A stretch of 64,000 nucleotides of DNA from Enterococcus sp. DIV0212c. Its GTDB lineage: Bacteria; Bacillota; Bacilli; Lactobacillales; Enterococcaceae. Positions 46,647 to 63,637 of this stretch are shown here, one piece after another (positions within the stretch are counted from its first letter, which is position 1; each line of letters starts with the position of its first letter). Position numbers and translations under genes: made by a program. The stretch spans positions 1 to 64,000 of the forward strand of contig NZ_JAFREN010000012.1 in the NCBI RefSeq assembly GCF_017377505.1, given 5' to 3'. The notes under the pieces were generated by a model that saw nothing but the letters and a program-made list of their open reading frames with translations, was not told the origin of the DNA and searched no databases.

Positions 46647-46878
46647 TTTACCCACTCCTGCTATAAATTGATTTTTAGGTAAGCTTCTTCAAAAAGCATC
46701 CTACCTATTTTTACTTGATTAATTATATAATATTTATCTCAAATAAATGTCTTTATTTTTTTAAAAAACATTATTTTCAAAACACTTTATTTAATTAAGT
46801 GCAAATAGATATTATTTACAGTCATACAAGAGGTATAATTATTTTAGAAAGACCAATAAAAAACTAGGAGTGAGTTAT

Positions 46879-47547: not shown

Positions 47548-47588
47548 TAAAAAATCAGCTGCCATTGAAACTGGCAACTGATTTTTTG
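47548..47588. terminator. Bidirectional terminator, O-methyltransferase and recR
   Basis: AAATCAGcTGCCA pairs with TGGCAaCTGATTT and is flanked by A and T tracts. It serves the two convergent genes. Confidence 0.88.
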
Positions 47589-47592
47589 TATT

Positions 47593-48189
47593 TTAAAGCT
47601 CACGACGGCCTTCTACAGCCTTCAACAGAGTCACTTCATCTGCATATTCAATATCACTGCCGACAGACAAGCCATGGGCTAATCGGGTCACTTTGATCCC
47701 AGCTGGTTTGATCAAACGAGAAAGGTACATCGCAGTCGCTTCGCCTTCTGTCGTCGCATTAGTAGCAATAATGACTTCTTTGACTTCATCATCATGCAAG
47801 CGTTGGATCAATGAGGCAATGTTGATATCTTCAGGTCCGGTTCCTTCCATTGGTGATAATACACCATGAAGCACATGATACAAGCCATGATATTCACGCA
47901 TTTTTTCCATTGCCATAACATCTTTAGGTTCTTCTACAACTAAAATGATGCTGCGGTCTCTCGTTGTATCTTGGCAAATTTCACAAGGATCTTCTTCTGT
48001 AATATTCCCGCAAATACTACAAAAATGTAAATCACGCTTCACACTGATCAATGCTTTAGCAAAAGCATTGACATCTTCTTCTTTCATATCAAGTGTATAA
48101 AAAGCCAAACGTACGGCCGTTTTTTGACCAATACCTGGTAATTTCATGTAACTTTCGACTAATTTTGCGATTGGTTCTGGATAGTGCAT
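47593..48189 (-). CDS. recR: Recombination mediator RecR
   Basis: A 198-residue RecR of exact family length. It has the helix-hairpin-helix [18 protein letters not shown], the zinc finger [16 protein letters not shown], and a Toprim domain ([14 protein letters not shown] and [15 protein letters not shown]). It loads RecA at gaps with RecO. The ATG at 48189 follows AAAGGAT. It lies 143 bp beyond the end of the type IV pilus cluster; dnaX and ybaB, usually just upstream, are not in the window. Confidence 0.96.
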
Positions 48190-48332
48190 ATTTTCAAATC
48201 CTTTCAAATCAGCTGATTAACACTGATCTCAAACTTCTTCTTTATGGTAAGACTATTGCTCATTATACCATTTTTTATGCGAAAGTTTGTAGGATAATGA
48301 TTTTTTGTTAACATTATTAGAGCGACTAATTC

Positions 48333-51300
48333 TTATTCTGAATTCAGTGCATCATTTACATCTTTGTTCCATTTCTTTTTATTCCACGTTGTGACACCTT
48401 TAAGCAATTTACTAGTATTTTGAGGTTCTGGGTAATAGTATTCTGCTGTAATATTTCGACGATGCTGATCGATCGGTATATCTAGTACGATCGATTTCTC
48501 AGCGGTTGATAGTTCTTGTAAGCCCGATGCTTTATCAAAGGTTTTATAGTCATCTCCATCGATTTTAACGACAATTTTCGTCACATTTCTATAGTAAGCT
48601 GTTAAACGTTTATTGATAACGGATAACCTCACATAAGCTTTGCCATCTTCTATGACTGATTCCGGTTCATCCGTTGCTATTTTTTTAGGCATCGGACTTG
48701 TCATCGTGGCCTCAGCTGTCAATGTTTTTTGGTTGTCTAGGATAAAATCGCCTGGGATAAATGGCTCTTCTTTTGGTGATTTCCCTTCTGCTTTTACAAT
48801 TAAACTAAACTCTGGTGAACCTTCTGGAATGTCCGTCACTTTAGCAGAAAAGTTGAAGGTGATTACATCATCCTTTGTTAAATTATCTACATTTGCTGAC
48901 AAGATTCTTGATGTCTGATCATAATTTCCAGCAATTTTTTTCCCGTTCTTCTCAAAAAAGAAAGCCAAACTACTTGATGCATCATCATCCAAGTCAGTAG
49001 GAATTTCCGCTTTGAAGACAACATTTCTTATAATTTTTTTAGATGCGGAGGGATTATTGTTCGCACTTCTTATTTCTCCAGAATAAGTCAATAAGCTGCC
49101 AACTCTAGTGATATCCACTTCTTTATTGGTTGCAGGATCTTTTTCTTTAGTACTTGATTCGACCTTCAAGTTTTCCAAAATCAATCCTTCCGGCATTATA
49201 TCTTCTACTGAAATCATTTTAGCAGGCTTGAAGCGGTCATCTTTTTGGCCTGTTTTTACTGCGTCATGATAGCCTTTAAAATTCCCATAGTTAAGGCTTG
49301 AAGGCATGACATTACCATTAATTCCGTTAGGATCTTTACTATACGTACTTAATTGAGCTTTATCCTTTAAATTATCAAGTTCACTACGATCTTTGGCAAA
49401 AATTTCGATTTTTTCATTAGGTGCTAAATATCTTGGTAAATTAATTGTCCAATTCGCTTTAGAATTCTTGGTACTTTTCCCCTTGCTTGTTACTTCTGTC
49501 AACGTTCCCTCTAGAAATTGGTTGTTTACTTTAGCGAAGATATAAACTTTATCCATCAATTGATTATCGTATTGTTTGTCATATAAGTTGATCGTACCTT
49601 TGATTTGTTTGGTTGCGTTAGTAATGGTATTCGCTTTCCCAGAAATTGAATCTTTTGTTATCGTCAACTCCATGGGTGGTGTAACATCCACTGTGGTGAC
49701 AGGTTTAACAAGAATCGTTGGTTCTTCTAAACTGTCCCGATGTCTTCCTCGAGTAGCATTGATAACTTCTACTTTATCACCCGTTTTAATAAAATCAGCT
49801 AATTCAACGACGAATATTCCGCCTCGCGGTTTTGTCTCGTCCCATTGTTGAACTCCTGGCAGATTTTTTGATCCTTTATAGCCTTTGGTCAGTACTTCTT
49901 TTTCCATAAGCACTGCGTTGTCTCTTGAGATTTTAACTTTCACCAAAACTTCATTCTCCCAAGCATCGCGCATTTCGTCACCATAACCAACTTTCACATT
50001 GACATGCCCATAGAGTTTTTTATCTGCATTTGTTGGAATTCTCAGCTCATCCACGATTGGAGCGGAATTATTACCACTCATACGAGCATAATTCTGAGCT
50101 CCTTTATACGTACTTTGATTGAATTCATCTTTGTAATCTGTACTGACGATCGTCTCAAAATTCCGCCCCTGTAATGTATAAGAAATCGGTGCCCAATAAG
50201 CGTCCGGATCTTGGTCTAAATCAAGTCCGTTTTTGATCTCCCAAACAGAAAGATATGATTTTATCGCTTTAAACACACCATTGTTAGAGCCGTTTGAGAA
50301 TACTTGTCCCCCATTTTGGCGATTGTTTCTGATATCATAAAAACGTGGTTGATCTAATTCAAAATCGGCTTGCCCTGCTGATTGAATTACGCCACTATTT
50401 TGAGAATTTGTTTGTCCTTCTGCTCTAAATACAGTATCTTTTCCTACTAAAAATCTAAGACTACCATTTTGTGTCCATAATGCCGGTCCCAACGCCGCAT
50501 TAATATAAACTTCACTTTCCTTACCTTCAAGAGAAAAGATTGACGTTTTGCCGGAGCCGTCTATTGGAAATTGAATGCCTTGCTTTCCCCCAGTATCTGA
50601 ACCATTGACTGGTTTTCCATTAGTAGATTTATCTGCTTGATTATTTATTTGAAGATCTCCACCGCTTTTTACAAAAAACTGATTTTTTTGGCCGTATAAA
50701 CGAACACCCGATGCTGACCCATTTTTCTTGGTTATTGATACTTTTCCTTTATTAGTGATAAGAAAATTTTGGCCCCCAACTAATCGAAAACGAAGCACCG
50801 CACCAATGTTGTTACTTTCTCCTTCAGAAGTCAAATTTAGTTCAGAGCCTTTTCCATCAACGTAAAAATTACCGTCTGTAACTTGATTGATCATTGCTGG
50901 TTGTGCTCGTTGCTTATTATTAGTTTGACCTAAACTATGAATATTAAGCTTTGCGCCACTCGTTACTTTTGTTATTGATTTAGTTGCTTCAGAGCTGTTA
51001 TTAGATGATCCGCATAAAGAGACCGTTGCACCATAGTAATCAATTAGAGAGCCATTGGATGTAGCATTAAGGACTGTGCCTTCATCTCTCGCTTCAAAAT
51101 GAACTTTATTTACATAATTTTGGCTGTTTGCATAAATAGCTTGTGCTTCTCTACTGTGCAGTTTAAGAGTTGATCCTTTTTCAATCACAAAAACTGTGTT
51201 GATTCTATTTCCGGGATGCATTCTAATAACTGATGACTTACCTTCAATATTTATCTTAGCCTGTTCAGTGATCAAAATTTCCTTGGCATTTACAATATCT

Positions 51301-52307
51301 TGCCCTGTAGTTCCTGAACTCCACTTTATTTGACCTTTCATAACTAAATAAGATTTTGATGCATCAATAAAGGTTCCGGCGCTACTTGAGTAACTATTTT
51401 GAATATTCTCTGTTAAGATTGTCCAGCCATCTTGTGTACTACGAATAAGCCCACTGGTATTGTTACTATTAACTTTCATATTCTTTACAACCAAATACCG
51501 TTTAGCTGATCCTAAATGAAATGTGCGGGTATTTCCTGTCCCAGTAGTAAAAGTATAATTCTTTCCGTCAATCATTAATGAACGATTGATTTCCGGCAAT
51601 GCAGTAGTTCCAGAAATATTGGCACCAAATTCAATATGATCAGTCGATGTATCTTTGAGTGCTGTAATCAATTGCTGATAAGTCGTAACGACTTTTTTAG
51701 TGGAAGACGGAGCAAAGTTTTGAATTTGTATGACTGAAGGTGAACTAAACATCTCATAACTATTGCTTGAAGCATATGAGCCTGCTGTTGCATACATGTT
51801 TGGCTTGGCCGTCAATGAAGCTGTTTCCTTTTTTTCTTTAGGTGTTGTGTAATTTATATCCACTGATTTGATTTTACGTTTTTGTCGATAAATTTCAATT
51901 TTATCTTTGCTGTCTCGAACAATCGGCAGTGGAATTTTTATGGTTGTTTTTTTGTCTGATTGTTTGATTTTTATCATTACCCCATCGCCCTCTGGTACTT
52001 CTGTCGTTAAAATTTCCATACCATCTACTTTTACTGCTTCCAATGTTTCTGGGGTAATCAATTGTTTTTCCTTTGATTTTATCGTAATGGTTTCTTCTTT
52101 AGGATTATTTACTGCAAGTTCGATAACCATTCCAATTTTTTCTTTCATCTCTGGATGAATGTACTCTTCAACGTTTAAATTGTACTTATTTTTCCCAAAA
52201 TCACGAAAAAAATAATAGCCTTGATAACTTAAAAAAACCATACACAAAATGAAGAATAGACTTCCTATTCCCAAACCAATTCTTTTAGTCATGTTTTTTT
52301 TCTTCAT
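48333..52307 (-). CDS. Large membrane-tethered protein with pectate-lyase-like adhesive domain, last gene of the pilus cluster
   Basis: A 1324-residue secreted protein. One N-terminal membrane helix (about 9-34) has no prepilin or lipoprotein motif. A short extracellular domain (about 40-160) follows, then from about 205 a long beta-helix-like region resembling the pectate-lyase-like adhesive domain (TYQQLITALKDTSTDHIEFG, with many short Val/Ile strand repeats), to about 690. The last 600 residues look like several beta-sandwich domains. There is no LPxTG signal or WxL motif. It starts 15 nt after pilO with GGAGGAG, so it is part of the pilus operon. I infer a pilus-linked surface adhesin, comparable in role to PilY1 but unrelated in sequence. 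No lyase catalytic residues are evident. Confidence 0.72.
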   Translation of the reverse strand: MKKKNMTKRIGLGIGSLFFILCMVFLSYQGYYFFRDFGKNKYNLNVEEYIHPEMKEKIGMVIELAVNNPKEETITIKSKEKQLITPETLEAVKVDGMEILTTEVPEGDGVMIKIKQSDKKTTIKIPLPIVRDSKDKIEIYRQKRKIKSVDINYTTPKEKKETASLTAKPNMYATAGSYASSNSYEMFSSPSVIQIQNFAPSSTKKVVTTYQQLITALKDTSTDHIEFGANISGTTALPEINRSLMIDGKNYTFTTGTGNTRTFHLGSAKRYLVVKNMKVNSNNTSGLIRSTQDGWTILTENIQNSYSSSAGTFIDASKSYLVMKGQIKWSSGTTGQDIVNAKEILITEQAKINIEGKSSVIRMHPGNRINTVFVIEKGSTLKLHSREAQAIYANSQNYVNKVHFEARDEGTVLNATSNGSLIDYYGATVSLCGSSNNSSEATKSITKVTSGAKLNIHSLGQTNNKQRAQPAMINQVTDGNFYVDGKGSELNLTSEGESNNIGAVLRFRLVGGQNFLITNKGKVSITKKNGSASGVRLYGQKNQFFVKSGGDLQINNQADKSTNGKPVNGSDTGGKQGIQFPIDGSGKTSIFSLEGKESEVYINAALGPALWTQNGSLRFLVGKDTVFRAEGQTNSQNSGVIQSAGQADFELDQPRFYDIRNNRQNGGQVFSNGSNNGVFKAIKSYLSVWEIKNGLDLDQDPDAYWAPISYTLQGRNFETIVSTDYKDEFNQSTYKGAQNYARMSGNNSAPIVDELRIPTNADKKLYGHVNVKVGYGDEMRDAWENEVLVKVKISRDNAVLMEKEVLTKGYKGSKNLPGVQQWDETKPRGGIFVVELADFIKTGDKVEVINATRGRHRDSLEEPTILVKPVTTVDVTPPMELTITKDSISGKANTITNATKQIKGTINLYDKQYDNQLMDKVYIFAKVNNQFLEGTLTEVTSKGKSTKNSKANWTINLPRYLAPNEKIEIFAKDRSELDNLKDKAQLSTYSKDPNGINGNVMPSSLNYGNFKGYHDAVKTGQKDDRFKPAKMISVEDIMPEGLILENLKVESSTKEKDPATNKEVDITRVGSLLTYSGEIRSANNNPSASKKIIRNVVFKAEIPTDLDDDASSSLAFFFEKNGKKIAGNYDQTSRILSANVDNLTKDDVITFNFSAKVTDIPEGSPEFSLIVKAEGKSPKEEPFIPGDFILDNQKTLTAEATMTSPMPKKIATDEPESVIEDGKAYVRLSVINKRLTAYYRNVTKIVVKIDGDDYKTFDKASGLQELSTAEKSIVLDIPIDQHRRNITAEYYYPEPQNTSKLLKGVTTWNKKKWNKDVNDALNSE

Positions 52308-52325
52308 CACTTTCTCCTCCTTCCC

Positions 52326-52916
52326 TTATTCTTTTGATTCCTCTTTGACATTTAAATAATACATATTAAACAACAAGGTAATATCAAATGTGGTAGCACT
52401 TCCCTCTTCTGAGGAACTTTTATAGCTAAAATCAGTTACTTTAATAAAACGCTGATCATTTTCTAACGTATGGATAAAATCAACGAATTCTTTTTTCCCT
52501 GCTGCACTAAATTCTAGAACGATTTTACTTGAATAGACTTTCTTTGTCTGATCACTTGGAGATGAAAACAGTAACGTATCTTCAGCCGTGATTTGTTTTA
52601 ATATGATTCTATTTTTTGCTACTTTTTGTTCTAATCCTGTCAGATATTCCTGAATTTGAATTCCTTTGGAAAATCGAGGTAGTTCGTTAACGATCGTCGA
52701 ATCAAGTAGGTTTTGCTTACCTTCCAACGATTTTCTAGATTGATGCAGCGCGGTTACTTCGCTTTCTGTTTTTACGATTTCTTGTTTGATTTTTCCTATC
52801 TCTTCTTGCTTGGGTGCAATACCCGTATACCAACCTAAAACAATCAGAAGCAGAGAAAGAAAAAAGAATACTATAAACATGACAACATGCTTTTTGGTAA
52901 AGACGACCGTCTTCAT
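52326..52916 (-). CDS. pilO: Type IV pilus assembly protein PilO
   Basis: A 196-residue bitopic protein: short cytoplasmic N-terminus, one membrane helix (about 10-32), a coiled coil (about 38-70), and a C-terminal ferredoxin-like domain (about 80-190) typical of PilO/GspM. It pairs with PilN in the inner-membrane alignment complex. Sequence is weakly conserved, and the assignment rests on topology and on its place right after pilM-pilN, overlapping pilN by 4 bp (ATGA). Confidence 0.8.
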   Translation of the reverse strand: MKTVVFTKKHVVMFIVFFFLSLLLIVLGWYTGIAPKQEEIGKIKQEIVKTESEVTALHQSRKSLEGKQNLLDSTIVNELPRFSKGIQIQEYLTGLEQKVAKNRIILKQITAEDTLLFSSPSDQTKKVYSSKIVLEFSAAGKKEFVDFIHTLENDQRFIKVTDFSYKSSSEEGSATTFDITLLFNMYYLNVKEESKE

Positions 52917-53551
52917 TTATTTTCTCCTCCTCTATCGATTGAAGGTACTTTTTCTTTCAGCATTTGTAGTTGAATGACTGATTCAAATTTATCACCAGAA
53001 TCTTCTTCAAGTGAGGAAGATAAAAAGGTTGCTTGATTCACCCAATCGATTTGGCTCAGTGCTTCTGTTAAGGCACCAATATTGGATAACTTTGGTCCCT
53101 TGATCGTTAAATCAAATTGAATCAACTCTTGCCCATCTTCTGTTTTTAACACTTCTTGAGGAGAAGCTGCAGCGGCTTCATCTCCTGTTGCTTCAAGTAA
53201 AGGAATAACAATTTGGTAAGATTCGATGGTTTGCTTATATTTTATGACCACTTCATCTAAACTTTTCGCCATATCAGCAAATAGAACTTGTTTGCCTTTT
53301 AGCTCTGTCAAATATTGCTGGACTTCTTCAGATTGTTCTTTTTTTAGACTTGAAATCTGAGCTGTTAATTGCGCCTGCTCCATTTTTTTTGTTTGTACAG
53401 ATTGTTCTAATGTTGTTGCTTCTTGCTGTGTCACTAGATACATCGTTGCAAGGCCTGCAGCACCAACTCCAGTTAACACAAGAAAAAGGATAATCAAAAA
53501 AAGTGAAGCTTGATTTTTATAAAATTTATCCGGCAATAAATTAATATTCAT
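52913..53551 (-). CDS. pilN: Type IV pilus assembly protein PilN
   Basis: A 212-residue bitopic protein. It begins MNINLLPDKFYKN, containing the INLLP motif through which PilN docks onto PilM. One membrane helix (about 17-39), a coiled coil (about 42-95) and a C-terminal ferredoxin-like domain follow. It is 6 nt after pilM and overlaps pilO by 4 bp. The motif makes the call firm in this context. Confidence 0.88.
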   Translation of the reverse strand: MNINLLPDKFYKNQASLFLIILFLVLTGVGAAGLATMYLVTQQEATTLEQSVQTKKMEQAQLTAQISSLKKEQSEEVQQYLTELKGKQVLFADMAKSLDEVVIKYKQTIESYQIVIPLLEATGDEAAAASPQEVLKTEDGQELIQFDLTIKGPKLSNIGALTEALSQIDWVNQATFLSSSLEEDSGDKFESVIQLQMLKEKVPSIDRGGENK

Positions 53552-53557
53552 ATGTGC

Positions 53558-54598
53558 TTACACTCCTTTCATGGCAAGTCCTGCTGCTAATAGGTATTTT
53601 GAAGGAATTGCATAGCGTTTTTCTGTATTGACTGCAACCACAGGAATATCGATTCTCGTTTCCATAGATTTAACAACCTGTTTAAATAGTAAAGGATGCT
53701 CTCCTACCAGATAAATTTTGCTGATTTTTTTCCCAACGGCTAATGTATTGCTATAGTAGTAAAGAATATTTTTGGTCACATCTGCTAAATCAGATAACGC
53801 GTCCTCTTCTTTGTCTTTATGAAATTCTGCCTTGTATTCTCCATTATCGTCTTCTATATATTTCCAATTGGCCACATTGTATTCTTCGTATTGGCTGTAT
53901 ATTGGAATATGATTTTCAAATATGGTGAAGGTTGCAACACCACAATCTACCTCGATCAACAACAAAACCTCTGACCACTTGATATTTCGGCTGATCGCGC
54001 GCGTGTATGCTAAAGAATTCAGATCCACTGCACTAGGAATCCCGCTGGCTTGCTGGATACCGTCACCTAAGCTGATCAGTGTTGGTTCAGAGGTTGCGAC
54101 AAAGTATATTTCGCCATCCACAACCATACGATCGCGCCTCGTTGCTTTTACTTTTTGTTTTGCAGCTTTTTTTTGTACTTTCTTTTTCTGACGTGCTTTT
54201 TGTTTTTCAAATACTAGTAAGTCAAATGTTGGTTGCTCAAACGGAACAGAAATAGATTCTCCCAATTCCAAAAATAAATATTTTTTGACTTCCTTATCAT
54301 TTCGCATCCCATTTTCTGGAATACTTCTAATCAGCAACTCATGATTACACGCTGAAAAAACCACATGAGGATTTTTTATGTTATGTTCTTTAAATAATTG
54401 CTTGATTCCTTCCAGCAGCATTTGTTTATTCACCAGTTTTCCATTTTTAAAAATACTGGATTTTAAAACAATTTCTCCTTTTTTGTGGATAACCAACGGA
54501 TTAGTACTTTTTAAGATTACAAAACGAATCACATTTTTTTTAATATCCAAACCAACGACAGTTTTCAATCCTTTTTTTAAAATGATCGTTTCCTCCAT
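53558..54598 (-). CDS. pilM: Type IV pilus assembly protein PilM
   Basis: A 346-residue cytoplasmic actin-like protein. The N-terminal TVVGLDIKKNVIRFVIL is the phosphate-1 strand of the FtsA/PilM fold; LLLIEVDCGVATFTIFEN is the second phosphate loop, and KIYLVGEHPLLFKQV is near the adenosine motif. A basic insertion rich in Lys and Gln (about 135-155) is unusual. It binds the PilN N-terminus and links the complex to the ATPases. Confidence 0.88.
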   Translation of the reverse strand: MEETIILKKGLKTVVGLDIKKNVIRFVILKSTNPLVIHKKGEIVLKSSIFKNGKLVNKQMLLEGIKQLFKEHNIKNPHVVFSACNHELLIRSIPENGMRNDKEVKKYLFLELGESISVPFEQPTFDLLVFEKQKARQKKKVQKKAAKQKVKATRRDRMVVDGEIYFVATSEPTLISLGDGIQQASGIPSAVDLNSLAYTRAISRNIKWSEVLLLIEVDCGVATFTIFENHIPIYSQYEEYNVANWKYIEDDNGEYKAEFHKDKEEDALSDLADVTKNILYYYSNTLAVGKKISKIYLVGEHPLLFKQVVKSMETRIDIPVVAVNTEKRYAIPSKYLLAAGLAMKGV

Positions 54599-54622
54599 TT
54601 CTGCCCCATTTATCTAGATTTT

Positions 54623-55408
54623 TTAACCAAAGAATAGTGAAAAAGCATAATTCAATTGCCCTGTCGCATAACAGTATACAAGCCAACTGCCTAGTGCGAT
54701 GAAGGGACCAAAAGGAATGTGCTTTCTTAATTTTTTCTTGATAATCATCTCACCAATGCTGTAAACTAACGCTAAAACACTCGCTAAAACCAGTGTGATC
54801 AATATGTAGATAGGTCCTAAAAATAGGCCTAACACAGCGAATAATTTTATATCGCCGCCAGCCATGCCGCCTTTACTTAAAAGTGCTAGCAGGAAAAGAA
54901 CCCCAAAACCAACGGCAAAACCTAATGGTGCAAACCACCATGGGTTTAATTGCTGAACAGTGAATCGCTCGATGATTGCTAAAATGAAAAATGGTATCAA
55001 CACCTTATTGGGAATTTTTTGTGCCGTGATATCCGTTACGGTAATAATTAGTAATAATGATAATAGCGTCCACGCAACTAAGGTTTCATTGCTCGTTCTT
55101 AATAGAAATGCAGACGATGTAAATAAGATACCGGATAGACATTCAAAACCTATGTAAACAATACCGATTTTCTTATTACAGTTGCGGCATTTTCCTTTTA
55201 AGAGAATATAAGAAAATACGGGAATCAATTCCCAGAAAACTAAGGTGTGATCGCAATTTTCACAGTGGGAACGTTTCTTTACGATATCCTCTCCTCGAGG
55301 AATTCGTTGGCCGATCAATAGATAAAAAGAACCTAGACAAGTTCCTAGGATGAATAAAAATATGTAGAAAAATAGGTATTCATATGTGAAGACAGTTCCA
55401 ACGTTCAT
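54623..55408 (-). CDS. pilD: Prepilin peptidase PilD
   Basis: A 261-residue polytopic aspartyl protease and N-methyltransferase. The zinc module has two CxxC pairs (Cys49/52 and 74/77), so the methyltransferase domain is intact. The catalytic aspartates are Asp126 in TVTDITAQKIPN and Asp186 in GGMAGGDIKLF. About seven helices. It cleaves the four prepilin-like proteins encoded upstream. The ATG at 55408 has AAGGAG about 10 nt upstream. Confidence 0.94.
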   Translation of the reverse strand: MNVGTVFTYEYLFFYIFLFILGTCLGSFYLLIGQRIPRGEDIVKKRSHCENCDHTLVFWELIPVFSYILLKGKCRNCNKKIGIVYIGFECLSGILFTSSAFLLRTSNETLVAWTLLSLLLIITVTDITAQKIPNKVLIPFFILAIIERFTVQQLNPWWFAPLGFAVGFGVLFLLALLSKGGMAGGDIKLFAVLGLFLGPIYILITLVLASVLALVYSIGEMIIKKKLRKHIPFGPFIALGSWLVYCYATGQLNYAFSLFFG

Positions 55409-55439
55409 TAGTCATTTTCTCCTTTTATTATTTATTGCA

Positions 55440-55479
55440 AATGTAGTAAGGAGATCCATAATGAACTCCTTACTACATT
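55440..55479 (-). other. Intra-operon hairpin between major pilin and pilD
   Basis: Arms AATGTAGTAAGGAG (55440-55453) and CTCCTTACTACATT (55466-55479) form a perfect 14-bp stem with a 12-nt loop. On the minus strand it is not followed by a T tract. It starts 12 nt after the pilin stop, so it looks like an mRNA-stabilising or processing hairpin that could raise pilin level over the downstream genes. Confidence 0.7.
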
Positions 55480-55490
55480 AATTTTTAAAT

Positions 55491-55937
55491 TTAAGGTTTT
55501 TCTTTAAATAAATCATCTCTATTTAACGCTGAAACTTCCTCTTCAGAGATTGTCTTTGGCTGACTATCTGTTCCTCCTGCTTTTAGAGACCCAGCAGGTA
55601 GTTCTACGCTAATTACTGCCTGATTATTCATTGAGAATTTTACTTTCCCTGGCTCTTTTAGATAAGTAGCTTGTGTTAAGTAGTTGTTGTCTACAAGAGT
55701 TTGTGCTGTCACTTGTCCCTTTGAAATAGATCCTTCTTCAGAAGGTGATGCCTCATACAAACGAGCTGCGCTTAGTAAAGTTTGTACATTAGCTACTCCT
55801 GCATCCTCTCTATTTTTTTGAATCACATTTGAAATCGCAACCGCTCCAATTCCCGCAATAATCGCCATGATTACTACAACTGCAAGTAACTCAACTAGAG
55901 AAAGTCCTCGCTCATCCTTCAACACTTTTTTTAACAT
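55491..55937 (-). CDS. Major type IV pilin (prepilin)
   Basis: A 148-residue prepilin. The class III leader ends DERG with cleavage after Gly11, giving mature N-terminus LSLVELLAVVVIMAII with Glu at position +5, as in type IV pilins. The mature protein is 137 residues: the hydrophobic helix, NREDAGVANVQTLLSAARLYE helix extension, then a small beta domain without disulfide cysteines. The very strong SD (GAGAGGAG), a following stable hairpin and the canonical features suggest the major subunit. It is flanked by pilC and pilD. Confidence 0.9.
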   Translation of the reverse strand: MLKKVLKDERGLSLVELLAVVVIMAIIAGIGAVAISNVIQKNREDAGVANVQTLLSAARLYEASPSEEGSISKGQVTAQTLVDNNYLTQATYLKEPGKVKFSMNNQAVISVELPAGSLKAGGTDSQPKTISEEEVSALNRDDLFKEKP

Positions 55938-56024
55938 TTTTGTTTCTCCTCTCTGTGTACAATTTTTATGTACGTTTTTTTATGATTAACACAAATAGTC
56001 TCCTATCCATGTGTCATCCTTTGA

Positions 56025-57236
56025 TTAGCCTTGTACTGCATCATACATAGAAAACATCGGCAACAGAATCGCTGAAACAATCAACCCAACGATTATACAA
56101 ATCACGATAATCGTTATCGGTTCCATGATCAATTTGATCCGCTCACCTAACATTTCTACTTCTTCTTCAAACATGTTACTTAATTTCTTCAGCATGCTTT
56201 CCAGTGAACCTGTCGACTCACCGACGATTGTCATCTGAGTCACTAATGGCGGAATGACTTTATCTTTACTGAAAACGTCACTTAGTGAACCGCCTTTTTC
56301 AACTTCTGCCTGACATCGATGTATGAGTTGCTTGATATATAAATTGTCCACTGCATCAGCAGACATCCCTAAAGCTTTAGAAATAGAAACGGAGCTTTCT
56401 AACAATGTCGATAGGGTGCTCAACATCATATTTAAATTACTTTTTTGGATCAATTCGCCAAATACCGGCATCCGTAAAATCAGACTATGCCATTTAAATT
56501 TCAGCTCAGCATTACGCATCATTAACTTAAAGCCAATGACAACTGCTGCAATCATAACGAGCAGTAGCCAGCCTTTTGTTTGTAAAAATTCACTTAAGCC
56601 GATTGTAATTTTTGTGATTGCTGGTAACTCTGCATCCAAACTTTCAAACACGGTCACAAACATCGGAACAATGCTTACAATCAAGAAAATCCCTACACAA
56701 AGCGATAGAACCAACATGATGATTGGATAAATCATTGCCGTGATCACGCCACCGCGTGCTTTGGCTTTTTTCTCATAATAGGTACTCATTCTTAGTAGTG
56801 TTGCATCTAGTGTTCCAGACATTTCTGCCGCTCGCACGATACTTACCAGCATTGATGGAAAGGCATTAGGATGCCTACTATAACAAGTAGACAATGCATC
56901 TCCACCGCGAATTTCCTCACAAATTTGAGTCAGAATTTTTTTGAAATTTTTATTCTGTTCTTGTTCTGCTAACATTTCACAAGCAGAGGTAATTGATATA
57001 CCGCAATCGATCAACGTTGAAAACTTCTGCAAATATTCCGCAAGCAATTTGACACTGATTTTGTTAAATAACTGAATGTCTTTGGTAGCAAACGTTTCTT
57101 CTTGCTCAATTAGCAGTGTCGAACGTAAGCCTTTTTTTTTGAGAAATTGACCTGCTTCGTACAAACTATCAGCTCGTAAACGTCCTTTTTTTATACTGCC
57201 ATGCATCGTTTGCGCTTCATAAGAATAGATTGCCAT
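56025..57236 (-). CDS. pilC: Type IV pilus platform protein PilC
   Basis: A 403-residue GspF-family inner-membrane platform. It has two repeated cytoplasmic domains (FSTLIDCGISITSACEMLAEQEQNK near 70-95 and LSTLLESSVSISKALGMSADAV near 275-295) and three membrane helices (about 165-190, 220-245, 375-398). It starts 3 nt after pilT. The platform joins the pilin pool to the PilB and PilT motors. Confidence 0.94.
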   Translation of the reverse strand: MAIYSYEAQTMHGSIKKGRLRADSLYEAGQFLKKKGLRSTLLIEQEETFATKDIQLFNKISVKLLAEYLQKFSTLIDCGISITSACEMLAEQEQNKNFKKILTQICEEIRGGDALSTCYSRHPNAFPSMLVSIVRAAEMSGTLDATLLRMSTYYEKKAKARGGVITAMIYPIIMLVLSLCVGIFLIVSIVPMFVTVFESLDAELPAITKITIGLSEFLQTKGWLLLVMIAAVVIGFKLMMRNAELKFKWHSLILRMPVFGELIQKSNLNMMLSTLSTLLESSVSISKALGMSADAVDNLYIKQLIHRCQAEVEKGGSLSDVFSKDKVIPPLVTQMTIVGESTGSLESMLKKLSNMFEEEVEMLGERIKLIMEPITIIVICIIVGLIVSAILLPMFSMYDAVQG

Positions 57237-57239
57237 TAA

Positions 57240-58370
57240 CTATTCCTCCTCACCAAGCAACGCCTCTGCCGCATCAATATCTACTTTTCCTGAAGACATA
57301 AGCTGTTGAAGACAACTTTCCATGGTATACATGCCATCGCTTTTTCCTGTTTGAAGCATATTACTGATTTGATGGGTTTTATTTCCTCGAATTAAATTCG
57401 CAATGGATTTATTATTTACCAACATTTCCGTTGCAGCGACTCGTCCGTTATTGCCACGATTAGGCAATAAACGCTGAGCCAAGATCCCCACTAACGCACC
57501 TGCCAACTGAGTCCGAACTTGAGACTGCTGTTCAGGTGAAAAAACATCTACGATCCGCTCGATCGTTGCAGCAGCACTGGTTGTATGAAGTGTTCCTAAA
57601 ACTAGGTGACCAGTTTCAGCGGCTGTCAATGCGATTGAGATCGTATCAAAATCACGCAGCTCACCCACTAAAATAATATCTGGATCTTGACGAAGCGATG
57701 CCCGCAAACCATTGGAAAAAGACTCTGTATCTACACCGATTTCTCGTTGATCGATCACACTCATTTTGTGATTGTGGACATACTCTATTGGATCTTCCAA
57801 CGTAATAATATGCGTCTTTTTCGTTCGATTCAGATAGTCGATCATAGAGGCTAATGTCGTTGATTTACCCGATCCAGTAGGCCCGGTAACTAAAAACAGA
57901 CCTTGCTTTTTTTGGATCATGGTTTTTAAAACTGACGGGACGCCTAATGAACTTAACTCAGGAATCTTCGTTGCAATGATCCGCAAAGCAATTGAGACAT
58001 TCCCTTTTTGTTTAAAGATATTCACACGGAAACGGCTAGCATTTTTAACTTCATAAGCCAAATCGACTTCTCCGTTCTCTTTAAATTCAGCCCATTGTTC
58101 CCCATTACACATCACACGACCATACATAGAAATCGTTTTGTTCGTCAATACGTCTTCAGAGGTTACTTCCATTAATTCTCCATTCAAACGAAAAACAGGA
58201 GCCAAGCCAACAGTCAAATGAATATCTGAAACTTTATTGTGAACTGCTTCTCTCAATAGCTCATCAAAATCTTCTTTATACGGTCTTAATTTAGGATTTA
58301 TTTTCCCTGGGCGTTCTTCTTTGCGTCTTGCTGCTTGCTGTGCTAGCAACTCTATTTCTTCTTCGTGCAT
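57240..58370 (-). CDS. pilT: Pilus retraction ATPase PilT
   Basis: A 376-residue hexameric secretion ATPase of the PilT group. Walker A is GPTGSGKS (163-170), the Asp box lies near 190-193 (LEDP), Walker B is DIILVGELRD (231-240), and the His box includes TGHLVLGTLHT. The C-terminal SIANLIRGNKTHQ (322-334) corresponds to the PilT hallmark AIRNLIREGKxHQ, followed by TMESCLQQL. It lacks the PilB N-terminal domain. A retraction motor implies dynamic, possibly motile, pili rather than a competence pseudopilus. Confidence 0.94.
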   Translation of the reverse strand: MHEEEIELLAQQAARRKEERPGKINPKLRPYKEDFDELLREAVHNKVSDIHLTVGLAPVFRLNGELMEVTSEDVLTNKTISMYGRVMCNGEQWAEFKENGEVDLAYEVKNASRFRVNIFKQKGNVSIALRIIATKIPELSSLGVPSVLKTMIQKKQGLFLVTGPTGSGKSTTLASMIDYLNRTKKTHIITLEDPIEYVHNHKMSVIDQREIGVDTESFSNGLRASLRQDPDIILVGELRDFDTISIALTAAETGHLVLGTLHTTSAAATIERIVDVFSPEQQSQVRTQLAGALVGILAQRLLPNRGNNGRVAATEMLVNNKSIANLIRGNKTHQISNMLQTGKSDGMYTMESCLQQLMSSGKVDIDAAEALLGEEE

Positions 58371-58393
58371 TTTACTCTCCTTGCTTTATCGAT

Positions 58394-60151
58394 TTATTCA
58401 TTAGTTGTAGCTTTCAATACTTCTGAAATGGTTGTAAATCCTCTGGCAACCTTATCTAAACCATCATCCAGCAATTTTTTCATTCCATTTCTTTTAGCTA
58501 CAGCTGCTAATTCATTTGCCTCACCATTTCTGGAAATAACCAAACGTGCATCTGGAGTGATGATAAATAATTCCTGAATTGCTACCCGACCTTTAAAGCC
58601 AGTCATATTACACTTTTTACAACCAGTTCCTCTATATAGATGGTCAACATACACATTATTTTTTTCTAAAAACTCAATTTCTTCTATCGTTGCAGGTTCT
58701 TCGACTTTACAGTTCGGGCAAATCGTCCGAACTAATCGTTGTGAAAGAACACCGGTTAAAGCATTTGCAACTAAAAAGGAATCTACACCCATATCGATCA
58801 GTCGACTGACTGTGGCAATCGAATCATTGGTATGCAATGTACTAAGTACCATATGACCTGTCATGGATGCGCGAATCGCAATTTCTGCTGTTTCTGCATC
58901 ACGAATTTCTCCTACCATGACAACATTTGGATCCTGACGTAAAATCGAACGTAACCCTGCAGCAAAATCTAAGCCAATATCACTATTTACCAATACCTGA
59001 TTCACGCCGTCCAGCTGATACTCAACAGGATCTTCTACTGTAATAATATTGACATTCGGCTGATTTAACTCATTTAGTGCTGCATATAACGTTGATGATT
59101 TCCCTGAACCTGTTGGTCCTGTGACAAGAAAAATACCGTGCGGTTGCTTTAATAATTCTTTAATTCCATTTAGTACATCTTTATCAAAGTTAAATTCATC
59201 AAGACCTCTTAATCCTGATGACATATCAATGATCCGAATAACAACTTTTTCTCCATAAATCGTCGGTAAAACAGAAACCCGTAAATCAACCATTCGGCGG
59301 CCGTTTTGGATTTGCGCACGACCATCTTGGGGTAATCTTGTTTCAGTGATATCTAAAGAAGAAATAATTTTTAATCGAGAGGTTACAGCCTGTTGAACAT
59401 TTTTAGGTAGCTGATTGAGTTCAACTAATTCTCCATCAACACGAATTCTGACATTCAAACTTTTTTTCTGTGGGTCAAAATGAATATCACTGGCTTTTTT
59501 ATCTACAGCAGCTTGCAACAACGAATTGACCAATTTGATGATCGGCGAGTCATCTTCTAATAATGTATTCGTTGACTGCGTTTCGCCAATAGCACTATCA
59601 TCTGTTGCATCCTGCAACCATTCTTCCAACATCAAATCTTCTGGATAATGTTCTGTGATCATCTGACTAATATCAGATGATGAAGCAAAATAAGGCACGG
59701 CCGACATACCTGTTATCAATCGCAATTCATTGATAACGTCATACGCCATCGGATTGACCATCGCCACGACCAGACGTCCTTTTCGTTTTTTCACAGGAAA
59801 TAGCTGATGCTTTTGAGCAAACTTTTTCGGAACTAAATCAAGAACGGCTGTTTCTCTTTCCACTGTAAATAAATCCATGATTCTGATGCCTGTTTGGAGG
59901 CTTTGGAGCTTCATTAATTGATTTTCATCAACGTAATGCTCATCCAGTAGAATTTTTTCAACTGATCTTGTTGAAGTGATCTGTTCTTTGATTTCTTCTG
60001 CTTGCTGCTTCCTTAGCAAGCCTTGTTCCACAGCAATTGCTAAAAGATCATTTTCATCTATCGTTCGATTTTTGGGAGATCGGCTAGGTTGTGGTCGTTC
60101 TCCTAAAGTTGGCCGTACTTTTTTTCTTCTGCGTACTTTTTTTTCTTCCAT
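58394..60151 (-). CDS. pilB: Pilus extension ATPase PilB
   Basis: A 585-residue extension motor. An N-terminal MshEN/GspE-N-type domain (about 30-170) precedes the ATPase core with Walker A GPTGSGKS (345-352), Walker B NVVMVGEIRD (409-418) and His box TGHMVLSTLHT. The zinc-binding tetracysteine is CPNC (478, 481) and CKKC (511, 514). It powers pilus polymerisation. The basic N-terminal 30 residues are unusual. It is 31 nt after the large minor-subunit gene. Confidence 0.95.
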   Translation of the reverse strand: MEEKKVRRRKKVRPTLGERPQPSRSPKNRTIDENDLLAIAVEQGLLRKQQAEEIKEQITSTRSVEKILLDEHYVDENQLMKLQSLQTGIRIMDLFTVERETAVLDLVPKKFAQKHQLFPVKKRKGRLVVAMVNPMAYDVINELRLITGMSAVPYFASSSDISQMITEHYPEDLMLEEWLQDATDDSAIGETQSTNTLLEDDSPIIKLVNSLLQAAVDKKASDIHFDPQKKSLNVRIRVDGELVELNQLPKNVQQAVTSRLKIISSLDITETRLPQDGRAQIQNGRRMVDLRVSVLPTIYGEKVVIRIIDMSSGLRGLDEFNFDKDVLNGIKELLKQPHGIFLVTGPTGSGKSSTLYAALNELNQPNVNIITVEDPVEYQLDGVNQVLVNSDIGLDFAAGLRSILRQDPNVVMVGEIRDAETAEIAIRASMTGHMVLSTLHTNDSIATVSRLIDMGVDSFLVANALTGVLSQRLVRTICPNCKVEEPATIEEIEFLEKNNVYVDHLYRGTGCKKCNMTGFKGRVAIQELFIITPDARLVISRNGEANELAAVAKRNGMKKLLDDGLDKVARGFTTISEVLKATTNE

Positions 60152-60182
60152 TTGCCTCTCTCCTTTTTTATAAACATCATGA

Positions 60183-62216
60183 TTAATAACTTACATTGTT
60201 GGTATAATCAAATACTCGCTGTATGATCCATTGGGAATTATTTTTGGGCACCACACCATGTGCTGGTTTCACGATTGTCACAACACCATTTTTTGCTTTA
60301 CTCTGGTCACCTTCTTCGATTGGTACTTCTTTTTCTAATTCTTGTATTAACAAATCACCGTCTTCTTTTGTCGCAACTTCAATGATCAGTTTCCCTTTGA
60401 TTGTTTCCTTGCCTTTTTTCAATCCTTCTTTGATAAACGTTGTATCAAAAAGCTCAAGATTAGGAAGAAGTTTCATTGAAATCGTAGTGTTTGCCTGAGT
60501 TTCTAAATTAAAAGGTTCAATCCCGGCGATCCCTAAATCCAAACGGCTACTGTCTTTCAACCGAATGGTATTCCAATATTTTTTATCGTTATAATACGTT
60601 ACTTTCTTAGCATTAGAGCCTCTTCGTTTCATCTTTGGTGCATCAATAAAACTCACGCCATTTTCAACAGTCAGCGAGGTTTGTTGCCCTTCTAACTCTA
60701 ATAAAGCTGGTGGTCGTGCTTTCGATGTATAGGTGCCTTTATCTGCATAAGCAAATGTTTCTTCTCCTTGGTTCAACAAAGAGGCCGAGGTCAACATGAA
60801 ATTACCGCTTTTTACTTGAATTCTACGTTTATCATTTTTCCCAGCAGTAACGGCGACACCGTCAACCTTAATAGTATTTTTAGGAGGCGTTAGGAAAACA
60901 TTAGAACCCGCAATAACAAAACCGCCGTCCATAAATTGATTCCAGTACTTATCCACCGGATTATTGATTTTTGTATCACTGGCATATTCACCAAAATTAA
61001 TCGACGAATTGCTTGTTGTCTCTTTTTCTAAAGTGATTTCTCCTTTGGCTAAGAAAAAACCCTTATCCGTTTTACCTGATCCTGTGTTGTTGATCAATAA
61101 ATTAGGCGTTTTTATCTCATAGGAGTCGTTATCCACATAAAGACCTGCGTTCTTGTTCGTTGAATTATTTACATCAATAGTGACATACATCCCAACATCC
61201 GCTTTAATATTGAGATTTTTTATAGCATTTATCTCTTGGGTTAGATTTTCATCATTACGCAGTGCAATTATATTTTTCGACGTGATCGATTTTTTTCCAC
61301 TCATCAACACGCCATTTTTTAATAAAAAGGAACCAGCAACATTTAAATCTTTATATATAACTGAATTAGTGCCTTTCCAAAAATTCAAAAAAGTACCATC
61401 TTGAAGATCTACTAAAAAATTATTGGACCGTCCATAACTTGTTTCATAATTACTAAAATATTCTGCATACGGAAATAGCGGTTGATTTGATTGATAACGA
61501 TAAATACGATCCATTTTGCGAATCCAAGTATCAGCTGTAATCAATTCATCCCCGTCGGCAAGTGTTGGTTGGTAATAAACATACCTCCAAGCATCTAATT
61601 TTAGAGCCTCAGCTCCTTGCTGTCCTTGTGCCCATTGAAACTCATACACATAGTCTCCTTTAGAAGATGACTGTTTTTTCTGTCCATTTTTTACAGTTTG
61701 CTCCACATTAACCTCTACTTGAAAGGTGGTATTCGTATTGACTATTCCATTTTTTAAATCACTTGCTTCCATTGGCATCCAGCCGCTTGCGCCGTTGTCC
61801 TCAGAAATAAATTTATATGGATTGATCATCGAAACAGTTGGTTCTGAAACAGTTACAGTATATGAAAAATCTTGCTGTTTCCCAAGATTACTTTTTTGAA
61901 TGGGCTGATTCTGTAATTCTTTCGTTACCTCAGACATTTTAGTCGTTAGAACCGTGTTATCTAGTCCCAATTGAATGTTTCCAGATAGTTTTGTTTCAAT
62001 CGTTTTTTTGATCGTCATTGACGCTTCCTGTAACGCATATTCTTTTACATCTTTCATCTTTGCCAGTTGATCGACCGCACTTATTTGCAGAAAATTATTT
62101 CTAGCTCTTAGAAAAATCCCCATCATCACAAGACTTACAATCACGATTGCTCCCAGTGCGTAGAGTAAAGCATAGCCTGCTTCATCACTTTTCAGTTTTT
62201 TACCATCTGCCTTCAC
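60183..62216 (-). CDS. Large minor pilin-like protein (PilX/GspK position), lacks Glu5
   Basis: A 677-residue protein with a prepilin-like N-terminus: KSDEAG with cleavage after Gly14, then YALLYALGAIVIVSLVMM. Position +5 is Tyr, not Glu, as in GspK/PilX tip subunits that start pilus assembly. The remaining 630 residues are mostly beta-rich, with many short Val/Ile repeats (DVGMYVTIDVNNSTNKNAGLY), far larger than usual minor pilins. It starts with GTG (GGAGAG 8 nt upstream) and overlaps the preceding gene by 17 bp. The large exposed part could be a tip adhesin or scaffold. Confidence 0.75.
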   Translation of the reverse strand: MKADGKKLKSDEAGYALLYALGAIVIVSLVMMGIFLRARNNFLQISAVDQLAKMKDVKEYALQEASMTIKKTIETKLSGNIQLGLDNTVLTTKMSEVTKELQNQPIQKSNLGKQQDFSYTVTVSEPTVSMINPYKFISEDNGASGWMPMEASDLKNGIVNTNTTFQVEVNVEQTVKNGQKKQSSSKGDYVYEFQWAQGQQGAEALKLDAWRYVYYQPTLADGDELITADTWIRKMDRIYRYQSNQPLFPYAEYFSNYETSYGRSNNFLVDLQDGTFLNFWKGTNSVIYKDLNVAGSFLLKNGVLMSGKKSITSKNIIALRNDENLTQEINAIKNLNIKADVGMYVTIDVNNSTNKNAGLYVDNDSYEIKTPNLLINNTGSGKTDKGFFLAKGEITLEKETTSNSSINFGEYASDTKINNPVDKYWNQFMDGGFVIAGSNVFLTPPKNTIKVDGVAVTAGKNDKRRIQVKSGNFMLTSASLLNQGEETFAYADKGTYTSKARPPALLELEGQQTSLTVENGVSFIDAPKMKRRGSNAKKVTYYNDKKYWNTIRLKDSSRLDLGIAGIEPFNLETQANTTISMKLLPNLELFDTTFIKEGLKKGKETIKGKLIIEVATKEDGDLLIQELEKEVPIEEGDQSKAKNGVVTIVKPAHGVVPKNNSQWIIQRVFDYTNNVSY

Positions 62217-62928
62217 CAGGAATCTCTCCTTTCGCTTTTAGCTCATCACGATAAGTAAATTCTGCTTTTCGACTATATAAAATAGCTGCAGCTTCTTTTT
62301 CTTCAACGCCGTCTTTTCCAGATAAATTTATTTCACCATTTTTAACATAGCGGTTAAAATCGATTGTTCCTTTATAAAATAAAATCGTCACACTGGTCTG
62401 GATCGTAAAAGTATCTCGATAATTTGGTGTCTTGAATTGTGTTTTCAAGGATTCATTTTTATTTTTTTGCTGAAAAATCTTGATTTTATACTCTTGATTT
62501 TTTAAACGATAAAAACGTGCTTCTGAATTTTTCCCACTATCTTTAGTGGCATCCAATATATCAGTAAGCCCGATTTTATTTTTCCCTTGTTCTGTTAAGT
62601 CAATTGGTTTTTGATTCGTTGCTTCCGAATCGAAAACACTAATGATTTGATCGGTCTGCCAAGGATTTCCTGAAGAAGCTGTTGTAGGAAACTTACCCAA
62701 ATATCCAGCTTTTTCATAAAGGCCCTTTTTTTTCGATAATTGGTTTATTTGAGCTACGATATCATTTGCAGTTTGCTGGAATTCGACTTTTTGTCCTTGA
62801 ATCGAAAATGCCTTACCGATACTGCCGATGATCGCTCCAAAAAACAGGATCACGATTGAAAAAATGGCTAAGGTCGCAATCATTTCTATTAATGTCAATC
62901 CGTCTTCATCTTTCAGAATCCTGCTCAT
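62200..62928 (-). CDS. Minor pilin (PilW/PulJ-like prepilin)
   Basis: A 242-residue prepilin-like protein. The leader ends KDEDG with cleavage after Gly10, followed by LTLIEMIATLAIFSIVILFF with Glu at +5. The C-terminal domain has a coiled start (VEFQQTANDIVAQINQLSKKKG) and a beta region. The ATG at 62928 has AAGGAG at 6 nt; the TTG at 62943 is less likely. It lies between the PilV-like gene and the large minor subunit, in the place of PilW/PulJ. Confidence 0.82.
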   Translation of the reverse strand: MSRILKDEDGLTLIEMIATLAIFSIVILFFGAIIGSIGKAFSIQGQKVEFQQTANDIVAQINQLSKKKGLYEKAGYLGKFPTTASSGNPWQTDQIISVFDSEATNQKPIDLTEQGKNKIGLTDILDATKDSGKNSEARFYRLKNQEYKIKIFQQKNKNESLKTQFKTPNYRDTFTIQTSVTILFYKGTIDFNRYVKNGEINLSGKDGVEEKEAAAILYSRKAEFTYRDELKAKGEIPGEGRW

Positions 62929-62950
62929 ATCTTTCTCCTTCAACTCACTG

Positions 62951-63637
62951 CTAATAAGTGATTACCCAATTAAATAGTGTGTCTGTCATTAAATGTCCCG
63001 TTTTTTCATCATAAATTTCCAGTACTACTTCGACACCATCCTTACGAGGATCATAGTTCTTTGAAGTATTTTTAAAATTCACTTTACACAGCACAAGATA
63101 ATTATGCTGATTTACGTTTCCAATATATCTGCCTAAGTAGTTACTTTCTTCTTTCTCTAAAGTTCCTTCTTCTGCATCTTTCCACTTCTTAGGAAGTATG
63201 GTTGCTTTATTTGGATAGTTATACTCAATTTTCCGTTCCTGTTGCTTTTTCTCTGCCTCATTCGTCTTATCAACTCTGTCAGTCAAATCAATCTCTTGCT
63301 CACCATAAATAGGAAGATGTCCACTATTTGTCTGAATCCCCGAATTATCGAGAATTAGATAGTTTCTTCTTATCTTTTGACTGTCTGTCAGATTCTGATT
63401 ATCCCTAACGCTGAAAACATATTGATTCAATCCTGCTAGGTCTTGTGTTTGCCCACGATAGCCGATCCATTCACGAAGTTCATCACGAATATATTGTGCT
63501 TCTTTTTTCTTTTCGTTCAATTCAATCATTTGCTGATTTCGAACCAACATTGATGCTAGCAACATAAACGATGTTCCTAATATAACTACTGCTACTAAAA
63601 CTTCTATCAGGGTCAAGCCATCTTCATCTTTTACCAT
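62951..63637 (-). CDS. Minor pilin (PilV/PulI-like prepilin)
   Basis: A 228-residue prepilin-like protein. A very short leader MVKDEDG is cleaved after Gly7, giving LTLIEVLVAVVILGTSFMLL with Glu at +5. The rest contains the helix extension NQQMIELNEKKKEAQYIRDELREW and a beta region without cysteine pairs. It is first gene of the pilus cluster, with SD AAGGAG and a promoter about 35-65 nt upstream. It resembles the PilV/PulI class by N-terminus and position. Confidence 0.82.
   Translation of the reverse strand: MVKDEDGLTLIEVLVAVVILGTSFMLLASMLVRNQQMIELNEKKKEAQYIRDELREWIGYRGQTQDLAGLNQYVFSVRDNQNLTDSQKIRRNYLILDNSGIQTNSGHLPIYGEQEIDLTDRVDKTNEAEKKQQERKIEYNYPNKATILPKKWKDAEEGTLEKEESNYLGRYIGNVNQHNYLVLCKVNFKNTSKNYDPRKDGVEVVLEIYDEKTGHLMTDTLFNWVITY

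Follow-up and report, generated by a model that had tools for sequence, protein, structure and literature searches.

A predicted type IVa pilus operon with an adhesin-like twelfth gene in Enterococcus sp. DIV0212c

The window analysed here is a stretch of 64,000 nucleotides (nt) from Enterococcus sp. DIV0212c (contig NZ_JAFREN010000012.1, positions 1 to 64,000). Twelve uninterrupted open reading frames (ORFs), all on the minus strand, occupy positions 48333-63637 and are predicted to encode a type IV pilus. Adjacent genes share up to 17 nt or lie no more than 31 nt apart; only the pilin gene has wider gaps, with 87 nt preceding and 82 nt following it. A preliminary description of the sequence had reported this compact one-strand cluster with the same coordinates, and its layout was borne out by the ORF check. 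The operon is flanked by recR (47593-48207) and ybaB, which lies just beyond the window (contig 64141-64455). Its features are as follows.

62951..63637, minus strand: minor pilin 1, 228 amino acids (aa); leader MVKDEDG, mature LTLIE (Glu5)
62200..62943, minus strand: minor pilin 2, 247 aa; class III leader, Glu5, conserved C-terminal GRW
60183..62216, minus strand: minor pilin 3 ("BIG"), 677 aa; DEAG/YALLY, without Glu5; sub-lineage marker
60369..61445, minus strand: predicted beta-solenoid module of minor pilin 3, residues 258-616
58394..60151, minus strand: PilB extension ATPase, 585 aa; MshEN domain, CPNC and CKKC
57240..58370, minus strand: PilT retraction ATPase, 376 aa; family models, tree, motifs
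56025..57236, minus strand: PilC platform protein, 403 aa; T2SSF and GspF/PilC models
55491..55937, minus strand: major pilin, 148 aa; KDERG/LSLVE; hypervariable C-terminal head
55409..55490, minus strand: gap between pilin and peptidase genes, 82 nt; perfect 14-bp stem, -22 kcal/mol for the gap
54623..55408, minus strand: PilD prepilin peptidase, 261 aa; two CxxC pairs, VTD..IPN, GGDIK
53558..54598, minus strand: PilM, 346 aa; PilM models below curated cut-offs
52913..53551, minus strand: putative PilN, 212 aa; position, N-terminal MNINLLP and hydrophobic stretch (by eye)
52326..52916, minus strand: putative PilO, 196 aa; position, weak PF04350
48333..52310, minus strand: twelfth gene, adhesin-like exported protein, 1325 aa; N-terminal membrane segment (by eye)
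50274..51743, minus strand: adhesin head of the twelfth protein, about residues 190-679; beta-helix like PF20585 and the serine-rich-repeat protein binding region (SRRP-BR), then Ig-like domains
48336..48668, minus strand: conserved C-terminal "dock" domain of the twelfth protein, residues 1215-1325

The machine components were compared with family models. PilT scored 471 bits with TIGR01420 (cut-off 319), and PilB scored 437 bits with T2SSE, far over the cut-off, and also matched MshEN. PilB fell below the equivalog cut-offs of GspE (583 vs 630 bits) and PilB (577 vs 676). PilC and PilD were over the cut-offs of the Pfam models T2SSF, A24_N and Peptidase_A24 and below those of their equivalog models. 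The major pilin, with its class III leader and Glu5, exceeded the cut-offs of N_methyl PF07963 and TIGR02532. The family models thus confirm the identities given to these five proteins in the preliminary description, including that of a canonical pilin. Both motors have intact Walker A/B, Asp and His boxes; the Cys motifs that had been ascribed to both belong to PilB (CxxC pairs at 478 and 511). All three minor pilins have prepilin leaders, as described, but the third lacks Glu5, and the Pfam scan returned no named family for it. The reported PilM/N/O set stands in part. PilM gave significant model matches under the curated cut-offs (PF11104, 25.1 vs 27; TIGR01175, 42.4 vs 133), and PilO matched PF04350 weakly (E 0.034 in the window; 4/11 PilO rows, best E 0.009). 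The family scan found no PilN family match, and the MNINLLP motif was seen by eye. PilN and PilO owe their names to their place in the gene order, their lengths, a hydrophobic stretch near the N-terminus (seen by eye) and orthologues at corresponding positions.

The ComG pseudopilus belongs to the same superfamily as the window operon, and a separate comG operon lies elsewhere in the genome, as does a second A24 peptidase. Operons of the comG type are not known to include PilT or PilM-O. In an ATPase tree of 70 rows, the ComGA rows stood apart at 100/100, whereas the window PilB and PilT fell within the PilB and PilT clades. Neither motor reached the ComGA equivalog cut-off of 300 bits (PilB 263.3, PilT 151.6). 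A ComG identity was ruled out on these two grounds. The preliminary description had named the tree beforehand as a check on its separation of the cluster from comG, and that separation held. The 14 rows of the window operon type form a starred clade in both halves of the tree, and nearest to it are Paenisporosarcina and a second Lactobacillales type. Loci L110 and L112 form a separate ATPase clade, and the L112 pilin has PilE1 as its best match in the PDB. Several distant rows lie on long branches, and the tool cautions on their placement.

To examine distribution, genome samples were taken at the level of the genus (22), the family (105), the order Lactobacillales (395, in 80 genera) and class-wide (398). 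PilT was over the cut-off in 7/22 genus genomes, DIV0212c included, in 9/105 family genomes and in 43/395 order genomes (15/80 genera). Minor pilin 3 (E 1e-10) was found in 14/395 order genomes and, class-wide, in two of 398, DIV0212c and G010. The 12-gene layout and order are kept in further enterococci and in other families. These results contradict the rarity implied by the preliminary description. Named carriers are E. plantarum LMG 26214 (PilT 96%) and Lactococcus plantarum (70%); protein names point to further carriers, E. ureasiticus and others. Two proteins labelled Erwinia sp. CPCC 100877 (P0007, P0016) are close to enterococcal proteins, perhaps from a mislabelled genome. The statement that no such system is described for enterococci agrees with the literature search. 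Among the matches listed (titles and abstract beginnings, with most subscription journals outside), no enterococcal type IV pilus was named. Seven Lactobacillales in the tables available from PMC3244431 have one com operon and no pil operon each, and "enterococc" does not occur in the available text of PMC6916266 or PMC6668835.

Within the clade, the seven carriers from Enterococcus are split between two separate parts, the second of which is grouped with another Enterococcaceae genus and other families. This result suggests horizontal movement. The cluster occupies another chromosomal site in G010 and G021. In six relatives, the ybaB-recR interval measures 282 bp (G009) or 581 bp (G001) or contains other ORFs (G010, G021, G004, G013). 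Judged from these genomes, the interval is a variable cargo site in the genus: it can be almost empty, or filled by the pilus, by exported-looking proteins or by genes that look transposase-like (by eye). One contig (C4 of G288, a genome listed with 5% contamination) carries two complete 12-gene clusters, L160 and L161, about 27 kb apart, each with its own dock protein.

Patchy occurrence (7/22 in the genus), differing sites in the window genome, G010 and G021, and truncated genes in Enterococcus sp. DIV0840 could also mark a decaying or silent acquired cluster. Selection was estimated as the ratio of non-synonymous to synonymous substitution (dN/dS). Against L103 (G010), dN/dS was 0.04-0.17 in eleven genes and 0.56 in the pilin. 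In the comparison with L102 (G021), which is more distant, the ratios were 0.03-0.12 for nine of the non-pilin genes and 0.32 for the pilin, again the outlier; two further genes had saturated dS and give no ratio. The low ratios, the twelve open frames in the window and the gene order conserved across families make a decaying or silent cluster highly improbable. The first 40 codons of the pilin are 92% identical to L103 at the DNA level and the rest 52%, so the head is the fast-changing part. The pilin shares about 49% aa identity with that of E. plantarum, and PilM, PilT and PilB about 95%. It looks as if the major pilin is diversifying or being replaced under phage or host pressure. Together, family models, the tree, conserved order and purifying selection make the prediction of a retractable type IVa pilus distinct from comG well supported.

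The most distinctive part of the operon is the solenoid-bearing minor pilin together with the conserved C-terminal domain of the twelfth protein and its exchangeable heads. The predicted structure of minor pilin 3 contains a beta-solenoid that, in structure comparison, best matches an adhesin and a tapirin domain, with beta-helices of autotransporters and phages ranking next. In the pilin ComZ of Thermus, an inserted beta-solenoid is believed to bind DNA, according to the available text of PMC8179133, and the window pilus might capture DNA through minor pilin 3 in the same way. We consider this improbable in view of those structural matches. Furthermore, the presence of comG and a second A24 peptidase elsewhere in the genome makes DNA capture the least supported function.

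The head of the twelfth protein belongs with the adhesive beta-helices of PF20585 and SRRP-BR in both sequence family and fold. Heads have been exchanged between lineages (beta-helix, MucBP and two others) with the dock retained. With at most 12 candidates scored per genome, the dock domain (E 1e-5) was not found in the 381/395 order genomes without minor pilin 3, and none of the 29 remaining order genomes with PilT had a hit. Dock and minor pilin 3 occur in equal copy number. The best weak Pfam hint for the dock is TcaA_3rd_4th (2/11 rows, E 0.001). A kept dock, swapped heads and a one-to-one relation with a tip-type minor pilin are read here as a convergent tip adhesin. Alternatively, the pilus could be a retractable type IVa pilus and the twelfth protein an independent membrane- or wall-associated adhesin, co-transcribed and acting after pili pull the cell close. 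Its N-terminal membrane segment has no obvious cleavage site (by eye), it has no class III leader, and PF20585 relatives include proteins labelled isopeptide-forming fimbrial or WxL. However, neither the restriction of the dock to genomes with minor pilin 3 in equal copy number nor its retention under swapped heads favors an independent adhesin, which we regard as rather unlikely. The preliminary description had noticed neither the solenoid nor the dock with exchangeable heads. Gene identities, clade, co-occurrence and head swapping are supported by sequence and comparison.

From the operon as a whole we infer extension, retraction, tip placement, a docking partner and a ligand. PilD would process the prepilins, PilB with PilC and PilM/N/O would extend a fibre of the 148-aa pilin, and PilT would pull it back. 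As judged from sequence, a retractable type IV pilus is very probable. The starting complex at the tip would consist of the three minor pilins, and the 677-aa subunit, which lacks Glu5, would sit at the very tip with its beta-solenoid. The twelfth protein would be exported separately and held on the pilus or its tip through the dock domain, so that the beta-helix head would be the adhesive end. It would then be a functional counterpart of PilC/PilY1 with interchangeable heads. Display on the pilus is an evenly balanced proposition. By retracting, the pilus would pull the cell up to the surface that it has bound. That surface is probably a polysaccharide, for example a glycan of plants or mucosa, although a glycan ligand is itself a tentative suggestion. 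As an explanation of the whole operon, a complete monoderm type IVa pilus with a separately exported, dock-held adhesive twelfth protein is likely. The overall interpretation in the preliminary description, retractable pili for twitching, adhesion or DNA capture, is partly supported.

Several observations weigh against this proposal. PilN and PilO are assigned mainly through position, and BLAST did not detect PilO in G259 (L162). The PilT loop is usually AIRNLIRE and reads SIANLIRG in the window. The structure models of minor pilin 3 and the twelfth protein have moderate confidence (mean pLDDT 70.1 and 73.2). Because beta-helices are also frequent in pectate lyases, tailspikes and autotransporters, adhesion does not follow from the fold. 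The dock search scored at most 12 candidates per genome, and co-occurrence of dock and pilus does not show contact; the twelfth protein may be membrane-anchored and merely co-transcribed. Database entries of DIV0840 end early (minor pilin 3 at 422 aa, twelfth protein at 755 aa; P0003, P0019), with intact homologues in other strains, and in Lactococcus plantarum (L007 16365-20640) the dock is in a different frame from the head. The system is therefore not kept intact everywhere. Inactivated copies in related genomes had been named beforehand as a refuting sign, and this sign is partly seen: two truncated genes occur in DIV0840. The window frames are open.

L102 and L103 share SIANLIRG in the PilT loop, and L007 and L107 have variants of it. 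L110 keeps AIRNLIRE and L112 has AVRNLIRE; the script did not locate the loop in most other rows of the operon-type clade. The stem in the pilin-peptidase gap lacks a clear T tail and is a possible mRNA stabiliser or attenuator. The corresponding gap of L107 also folds strongly and those of most other carriers do not, some gaps being shortened by mis-set ORF starts. No terminator-like site was found between the twelfth gene and recR (48208-48332), and a 16-pair stem lies 3' of recR (47549-47587), so the pilus transcript may continue into recR. Near recR, 44904-46655 encodes a surface protein that resembles SpaA (by eye) and ends in a sorting-type LPKAG.

With this cluster, enterococci and other Lactobacillales, usually expected to have only comG, gain a compact, apparently complete type IV pilus that is predicted to be retractable. 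The head of the twelfth protein resembles the L. reuteri SRRP binding region, part of a serine-rich-repeat surface protein. SRRPs are wall-anchored and are not known to be part of a pilus operon. The diderm PilC/PilY1 proteins are likewise exported separately; their C-terminus is conserved, their N-terminal modules vary, and they are tied to minor pilins (available text of PMC8179133). They differ in that the seven twelfth-gene proteins scanned had no Pfam match to the PilC/PilY1 beta-propeller family and their conserved part is only about 100 aa. It is conceivable, if somewhat doubtful, that Lactobacillales evolved their own detachable pilus tip adhesin, non-homologous to PilC/PilY1, in which a dock of about 100 aa plugs into a tip complex crowned by the Glu5-less solenoid minor pilin and heads are swapped to change grip. 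If so, monoderms reached the PilY1 solution independently, and tip-adhesin presentation could be tested in a single-membrane system of twelve genes with natural head swaps.

Clostridia and Streptococcus sanguinis carry type IVa pili, and the clostridial pili of C. perfringens and C. difficile include PilT, PilM, PilN and PilO (available text of PMC6916266). The clostridial side of the tree consists of two PilT rows from metagenome-assembled genomes (L037, L040) on long branches. The S. sanguinis pil locus spans 22 kb (PMC4832360, in part). Like the window operon, it unites an extension ATPase, PilT, a platform protein, PilD, PilM/N/O, major pilin(s) and three minor pilins in one cluster, and its minor pilins are modular, one of them shown to be an adhesin (available text of PMC4832360, PMC6916266 and PMC8179133). 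L112 is likened to S. sanguinis by its pilin alone, and the L110/L112 clade is separate from the window motors. The modules also differ, being von Willebrand factor A (vWA) and lectin-like in S. sanguinis, as far as the available text goes, and a predicted solenoid in the window operon.
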